A stretch of DNA of 64,000 nt. It comes from Halobaculum sp. MBLA0147. GTDB taxonomy: Archaea > Halobacteriota > Halobacteria > Halobacteriales > Haloferacaceae. Shown here one piece after another: positions 58,784 to 59,213 of the stretch. The position numbers and the translations under genes were made by a program. How positions within the stretch are numbered: position 1 is the stretch's first letter; each line of letters begins with the position of its first letter. The notes below the pieces were generated by a model. It was given only the letters and a program-made list of their open reading frames with translations. It had not been told where the DNA came from and ran no database searches. The DNA lies in contig NZ_JBGKAD010000001.1 in NCBI RefSeq assembly GCF_041361345.1, forward strand, positions 868,001 to 932,000, read 5' to 3'.

Positions 58784-58922
58784 ACCCACCCGATTCGCTC
58801 CCGCAGCCTTAGTGTTTAGGTGGTACCACGGGACAGTGTGTGGACGGCGGAGGTGTGCTCGTCGCGACGGCAGGGTCGGCGGCGCGCGAGCGGCGCGAGT
58901 GAGACGAGCGCCTCGACTGCGA

Positions 58923-59043
58923 GCGGGGAACGAAGTGACCCGCGAGTTGGAGGCTCGAACGGAGTGAGAGCCTCGGAGCCGCGAGCGGGGAACGAAGTGA
59001 CCCGCGAGCCGCGCGAGGGTCTCGCGAACGGAGTGAGCGAGAC
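58923..59043. repeat. Four hairpins with conserved 11-nt loop GAACGRAGTGA and variable stems
   Basis: Loops at 58928-58938, 58957-58967, 58990-59000 and 59026-59036 all read GAACGRAGTGA. The flanking stems differ but pair within each copy: GCGGG/CCCGC (copies 1 and 3, identical 28-bp units), GAGGCTC/GAGCCTC (copy 2) and GTCTCGC/GCGAGAC (copy 4). Confidence 0.85.
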
Positions 59044-59147
59044 GGCTGGAAGGGGGAGGTGCCGTGCGGGGCGGAGATACGGCCGATCGGACCCACTGGA
59101 GCCCCGTAGTCGCCCAGACGCGCTACCCACAGAACCACCAACCCACA

Positions 59148-59213
59148 CGACCACCTCCGCGCGACCACCCCCGCGCGACCACCTCCGCGCGACCACCTCC
59201 ACACGACCACGAC
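59148..59213. repeat. 14-bp tandem repeat, about 4.7 copies
   Basis: CGACCACCTCCGCG repeats at 59148, 59162, 59176 and 59190 with single-base changes, followed by a partial copy at 59204. Non-coding, about 90 bp upstream of the methyltransferase promoter. Confidence 0.88.

Follow-up and report, generated by a model that had tools for sequence, protein, structure and literature searches.

An array of hairpins in an intergenic gap of Halobaculum sp. MBLA0147 is probably part of a degenerate copy of a mobile element, whose P1 and P2 region is enlarged here. The element would belong to a MITE-like family that is non-autonomous and dispersed in the Halobacteria. The array lies at 58892-59043 of the window, which is the whole 64,000-nucleotide stretch of DNA that was analysed (contig NZ_JBGKAD010000001.1, positions 868,001 to 932,000, forward strand), and is a member of a dispersed modular repeat family with 26 BLAST matches in its own genome. 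This repeat family is apparently undescribed so far. No description of it was found in a literature search that reached few subscription papers, and searches by the exact 11-mer strings returned only papers that were unrelated, as judged by title. Similarly, the window and seven copies gave nothing relevant in Rfam, even at E values up to 1, and the element had no match in a phage collection.

Hairpins of the array and the geometry of their tips

The 11-mer GAACGRAGTGA occurs four times on the + strand (58928-58938, 58957-58967, 58990-59000 and 59026-59036). A first-pass annotation had described it as the invariant 11-nt loop of four hairpins whose stems change in a paired manner. These hairpins are real and far above chance, as dinucleotide shuffles of the window held a mean of 0.15 copies and never reached four. 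The perfect arms around the four 11-mers measure 5, 7, 5 and 7 bp (GCGGG/CCCGC, GAGGCTC/GAGCCTC, GCGGG/CCCGC and GTCTCGC/GCGAGAC in hairpins 1-4). The stem changes are compensatory, but hairpins 1 and 3 have the same stem, so that the window contains three stem sequences and not four. The 11-mers, although all present, do not form an open loop. When the array is folded as RNA, AC pairs with GT inside the "loop" and the remainder is a tandem GA/GA mismatch and a GNA triloop, giving a structured tip with varying inner pairs. The region 58905-59055 has a z of -3.8 when folded as RNA. A fifth hairpin of the same kind lies just upstream at 58892-58912, with GAGTGAGACGA in a GGCGC/GCGCC stem.

The array occupies a gap of about 570 nt with divergent called genes on either side, one of which has no Pfam match, while the other encodes a putative RNA methyltransferase (PF02598) ahead of ribosomal protein L3. 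Downstream of the array, positions 59150-59210 of the same gap contain a short tandem repeat (GCGCGACCACCTCC, about 16 bp). The following features were assigned.

58853..58880, + strand: possible decayed 5' terminus of the element, placed by position only (slot of GTGTTCAGATAAG in better preserved copies); its own sequence is poorly conserved
58881..59015, + strand: putative P1 region, outer arm GGCGCGCG ... CGCGCG around several hairpins, placed from own-genome copies and a related-genus model
58892..58912, + strand: hairpin 0, GGCGC-GAGTGAGACGA-GCGCC, variant tip with GAG triloop, read from the sequence
58923..58943, + strand: hairpin 1, GCGGG-GAACGAAGTGA-CCCGC, with a second GA/GA at 58921-58922 and 58944-58945 (shuffle and arm counts)
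58950..58974, + strand: hairpin 2, GAGGCTC-GAACGGAGTGA-GAGCCTC (shuffle and arm counts)
58985..59005, + strand: hairpin 3, GCGGG-GAACGAAGTGA-CCCGC, with a second GA/GA outside (shuffle and arm counts)
59019..59043, + strand: hairpin 4, the P2 hairpin, GTCTCGC-GAACGGAGTGA-GCGAGAC, in copy L258, which is 97% identical, it aligns with the model's P2
59044..59074, + strand: conserved-core remnant GGCTGGAAGGGGGAGGTGCCGTGCGGGGCGG (consensus GGCTGGGGAGG.GTGAGG...), from comparison with other copies

No 3' terminus of the element was recognised within the window. Because the 5' slot is at best decayed and a 3' terminus is not recognised, this copy, whose termini are no longer recognisable, is probably an old, enlarged relic.

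The tip has the form GA-NN-GNA-NN-GA, in which tandem G.A mismatches and a GNA triloop enclose two covarying Watson-Crick pairs. An unbiased scan covered about 2 Mb of five genomes, in which genes were called by a simple gene caller (coverage about 80% in most samples and 60% in one), and listed the hairpins between genes that have an outer stem of 5 bp, a mismatch of 2 nt on either side and an inner stem. GA/GA, counted with its strand mirror TC/TC, was dominant only with an inner stem of exactly 2 bp below a loop of exactly 3 nt (75 of 214), as against 1 of 168 and 2 of 30 in neighbouring geometries. About 75 hairpins of the scan were of the GA/GA type and 60 of these had a GNA loop. A second GA/GA was present exactly 5 bp farther out in 15 of 69 hairpins. 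The geometry of the tip is fixed (tandem G.A, two pairs, GNA triloop), while the stem sequences are free.

Among 103 non-redundant hairpins, for which inner pairing was not required, positions 3-9 of the 11-mer were GC in 46, AT in 34, CG in 14, GT in 8, AC in none and another combination in 1; independence predicts 40 Watson-Crick pairs. These counts bear out the earlier claim of selection for structure rather than sequence. Positions 4-8 were C-G in 94 of the 103. Mismatches in the stems were GT/TG in 17 cases and AC/CA in 3, and this preference for G.T over A.C indicates that the strand with the 11-mer folds, and not its complement. It is thus the fold of a single strand that is under selection, with G.T/G.U intermediates kept and A.C not. 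Compensatory changes would also result if template-switch correction kept palindromes perfect without any function. Such a mutational artefact is very improbable here, as it would turn the GA/GA mismatches into pairs, yet GA/GA is the most constant part of the hairpins, and a preference for G.T over A.C would not result from it.

Perfect stems of at least 5 bp were found in 60 of 179 intergenic loops of the GA-tip form and in 2 of 112 in called coding sequence; loops without pairing arms, which the first-pass annotation had named as the finding that would speak against it, are thus not equally common. With wobbles allowed in stems of at least 5 bp, 70 of 74 hairpins lay outside called genes. 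In favour of transcription terminators or 3'-UTR stem-loops, hairpins are found upstream of RNA 3' ends in Haloferax (PMC7237163), and convergent gaps are somewhat enriched (23 hairpins). However, tandem contexts held 16 sense and 12 antisense hairpins, a further 18 were in divergent gaps, and the array of the window is also flanked by divergent genes. The orientation test was negative, and the idea of transcription end signals, which had been one of three put forward earlier, is highly unlikely.

Termini, internal structure and site occupancy

The better preserved copies in the MBLA0147 genome start with GGYRGTGTTCAGATAAG and end with its reverse complement, forming 17-bp terminal inverted repeats. 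Nine such paired ends span 250-488 bp, and these dispersed elements are too short to code. Possible 8-bp target duplications flank three of the nine copies, with identity at 8, 7 and 7 positions, and 2 of 2000 permutations gave a summed flank identity at least as high; the other six end pairs were without convincing duplication. Duplications of 8 bp are known for IS1595-type transposases. What distinguishes the copies from each other is hairpin-pair cassettes of about 50 nt, gained or lost as a whole at fixed places.

In a related Halorubrum-like genus, other hairpins sit inside a strongly repeated unit. Eighteen copies from one genome (G153) align over about 240 nt in the order GGCGCGTGCC-P1-GCACGCGCGAGGGAGTC-P2-GACGAGGCTGGGGAGG..., GGGACTCAAAGGGGCAG, followed by a long arm that ends in CTGGGGCTTTGG. 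In 33 copies from several genomes, 97.6% of the cells were paired, compared with 28-46% in slide controls, and double changes were present in 30 of 62 pairs. The covariation score was 0.303, versus 0.126 in shuffled alignments and at most 0.05 when slid; the alignment mixes paralogues and orthologues, so that relatedness inflates the shuffle comparison, and the slide control keeps relatedness but favours a structure derived from the same alignment. Massive covariation of the homologous unit is shown for the related genus. The inverted termini of the MBLA0147 copies were not seen in the Halorubrum-like ones, many of which have TTATAAA upstream. In G153, tandem repeats of about 60 bp, each with TTTATAA and GGCTGGGGCTTTGG, follow the unit (L437, L439, L441 and L442).

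A model (R1) built from 38 copies of the Halorubrum-like genus found 12 copies in 140 kb of G153, or by extrapolation about 260 per genome. The same model matched copies in the MBLA0147 genome with E values of 0.0007, 0.0012 and 0.0026, and its match to the window (58975-59059) was weak, at E 0.088. The window array is 97% identical over 95 bp to the own-genome copy with E 0.0007, and its membership of the family is mainly based on this identity.

Presence and absence could be followed at orthologous places of the Halorubrum-like genus. At one site between two abutting genes, which we take to be YeeE/YedE-like, a hairpin block of 129-138 nt is present in eight genomes, two others have a shortened block of 66 nt that lacks the inner two hairpins, and the block is absent from most of the rest. 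The tip at this site reads GAACGGAGTGA, GAGCGGAGTGA or GAGCGGAGCGA, and one stem is GGC/GCC or GGG/CCC. These variants indicate that both single wobble steps and double compensatory changes have occurred at one orthologous site. The block has no evident termini. It lies at the start codon of the downstream gene, where empty sites read ATGGCT and filled sites have an apparent GTG start, which indicates that the 5' end of the gene was changed. On a Halorubrum plasmid, a different place from the block site, an annotated YeeE/YedE family gene also lies next to one copy of the larger repeat. A second orthologous place has the unit in many of these genomes and lacks it in at least three. In three genomes of the same genus as MBLA0147, no hairpins were found at the window locus; similarity to the left-hand gene was not found there either, so that a clean empty site is not available. 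Palindromic mobile repeats are the best of the three options that had been offered for the hairpins, given the inverted termini, the apparent 8-bp duplications of some copies and the presence and absence at an orthologous site.

Distribution of the motif and of the element

The following statements on whole genomes are based on sequence searches of genomes and on about 2 Mb of stretches. The motif GAACGNAGTGA has 36 copies in the MBLA0147 genome, compared with 2 of a reversed control. It occurs at least once in all 292 sampled Halobacteria genomes and is far above the control in most of them, although a few genomes of the class (G014, G054, G129 and G195) are not enriched. In the same phylum outside the class, counts are near the control, with small excesses in a few genomes. 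The impression recorded earlier, that similar elements occur in other haloarchaeal intergenic regions, is supported. A sister motif, GAGCGNAGCGA, was above the control in most of ten genomes tried and was weakly raised in the MBLA0147 genome (77 versus 71). A companion hairpin, GTCAGAGCNTGCTCTGAC, was also observed beside GNA hairpins in many haloarchaeal genera, with scattered matches in unrelated bacteria.

A sequence-only model of the core matched 40 of about 60 genomes of the class and, weakly, one of about 330 others; 13 candidates per genome were scored, so that copy numbers are lower bounds. Carriers of the core include Halosimplex, Halopiger, Natrinema, Haloterrigena and Halorussus, and plasmids of Halobaculum and Halorubrum also match. 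At five plasmid places that were inspected, the elements were without annotation and no annotated transposase was listed in the neighbourhood.

Spread by a RAYT (TnpA_REP) transposase, as in REP/BIME-type repeats, would account for short intergenic palindromes in arrays, with many copies and compensatory stems. This explanation is very improbable and failed on the search for a cognate transposase in the genomes tried. One genome (G124) has 55 copies of the motif and no Y1 transposase, the Y1 genes of the other genomes tested encode 126-140 aa and no hairpin of this type lies within 1.5 kb of any of them, and the stems here are not conserved within a genome, unlike those of REPs.

Two further loci of one genome were recorded in passing. 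One (L025 1240-1680; G000:C1 ~2360030-2360470) has a tRNA-like gene with a CAT anticodon region, on which ARAGORN makes no call, followed by three tandem copies of its 3' end with a 97-bp period and a GAACGGAGTGA tip in each. In the other (L008; G000:C1 ~733900-735400), a hairpin element at 1501 lies about 240 bp from a repeat array (1747 on) whose repeats match a CRISPR direct-repeat family below its cut-off.

The folded molecule and comparison with known systems

The strand that folds could do so as RNA or as single-stranded DNA, and there is a slight lean towards RNA. It is quite possible, if short of an even chance, that the family is a non-coding RNA with its own promoter in many dispersed copies (SINE-like or regulatory), with mobility secondary. 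This would fit the multi-branched fold, the conserved joining sequences, the acceptance of G.U pairs (one pair is mostly U.G), the TTATAAA upstream of many related-genus copies and an orientation that is independent of neighbouring genes. However, TTATAAA starts only about 16-22 nt before P1. The spacing from promoter to start in archaea puts the transcript start for this box beyond the 5' side of P1, which would be omitted from the RNA. The slot of TTATAAA is moreover that of the inverted terminus in the MBLA0147 genome, and both points weaken its reading as a promoter. GNRA tetraloops, which are usual in RNA, were not enriched in the scan.

A single-stranded DNA intermediate of replication, transposition or transfer, with the caps as ultra-stable DNA mini-hairpins, is on the whole doubtful but deserves serious weight. 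C(GNA)G hairpins made of DNA have an extraordinary stability and resist nucleases (PMC4686876). The prevalence of C-G at positions 4-8, the lack of orientation bias to genes, the TTATAAA spacing and the absence of GNRA enrichment are all in agreement with DNA. In contrast, it is RNA that typically shows complex, conserved multi-branched folding with linkers that are conserved as well, G.U-rich positions occur here, and 58905-59055 folded as DNA gave no excess over shuffles under an energy model that ignores sheared G.A pairs.

For the favoured MITE-like family, copies would be spread by a transposase supplied in trans. The element would have to fold in single-stranded form, with a transcript slightly favoured over single-stranded DNA, and the G.A/GNA caps may keep its arms compact and stable or allow a protein to recognise them. 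More tentatively, the body of this widespread mobile family may itself be a structured RNA or single-stranded DNA module that grows and shrinks by exchange of hairpin cassettes with the fixed G.A/GNA cap, and a dedicated protein may recognise this cap; the family would then be the archaeal equivalent of SINE-like structured repeats. Its tens to hundreds of copies in a genome, its inverted termini and its compensated fold make the family a handle on what shapes archaeal intergenic regions, and it bears on whether mobile elements carry selected RNA or single-stranded DNA structures. Being small and precisely defined, the cap lends itself to a test for a binding protein, and at the presence/absence sites in one genus mobility could readily be measured, together with its influence on the genes nearby.

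Among known structures, the kink-turn also has tandem G.A pairs, together with a defining 3-nt bulge. It was rejected, as the bulge is missing here and GA/GA is flanked by paired stems on both sides. The GNA-loop DNA mini-hairpin d(GCGAAGC) shares the C(GNA)G tip and the sheared G.A pair (PMC4686876 and references there). Here, the tip is known from sequence and differs in standing at a fixed 2-bp distance from a tandem G.A mismatch and in being repeated across genomes.

REP/BIME repeats with RAYT are likewise intergenic palindromes in arrays that are kept by complementary changes (PMC2817692, PMC3733652). Unlike in these systems, the stems differ between copies, a RAYT was not found in the genomes tried, and the GTAG/GTGG head at the palindrome foot was not seen on inspection of the listed hairpins with flanks. 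PATEs and IS605-type elements of haloarchaea also have palindromes, and PATEs are without coding capacity, but PATEs lack inverted termini and duplications (PMC3119063).

The closest likeness is to the MITEs and small mobile repeats (SMRs) described in Haloquadratum walsbyi, which are short, non-coding and dispersed, with inverted termini and, for MITEs, often with target duplications (PMC3119063). SMRs, at about 80-110 bp, create no duplications (PMC3119063). The terminal inverted repeats of a MITE are present in the nine own-genome copies and are not recognisable in the window copy. No autonomous partner or parent transposon with GGYRGTGTTCAGATAAG termini was found in the 0.8 Mb sampled of the MBLA0147 genome. 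Unlike both MITEs and SMRs, the family has a strongly covarying multi-hairpin interior, a fixed tip motif and exchangeable hairpin cassettes.
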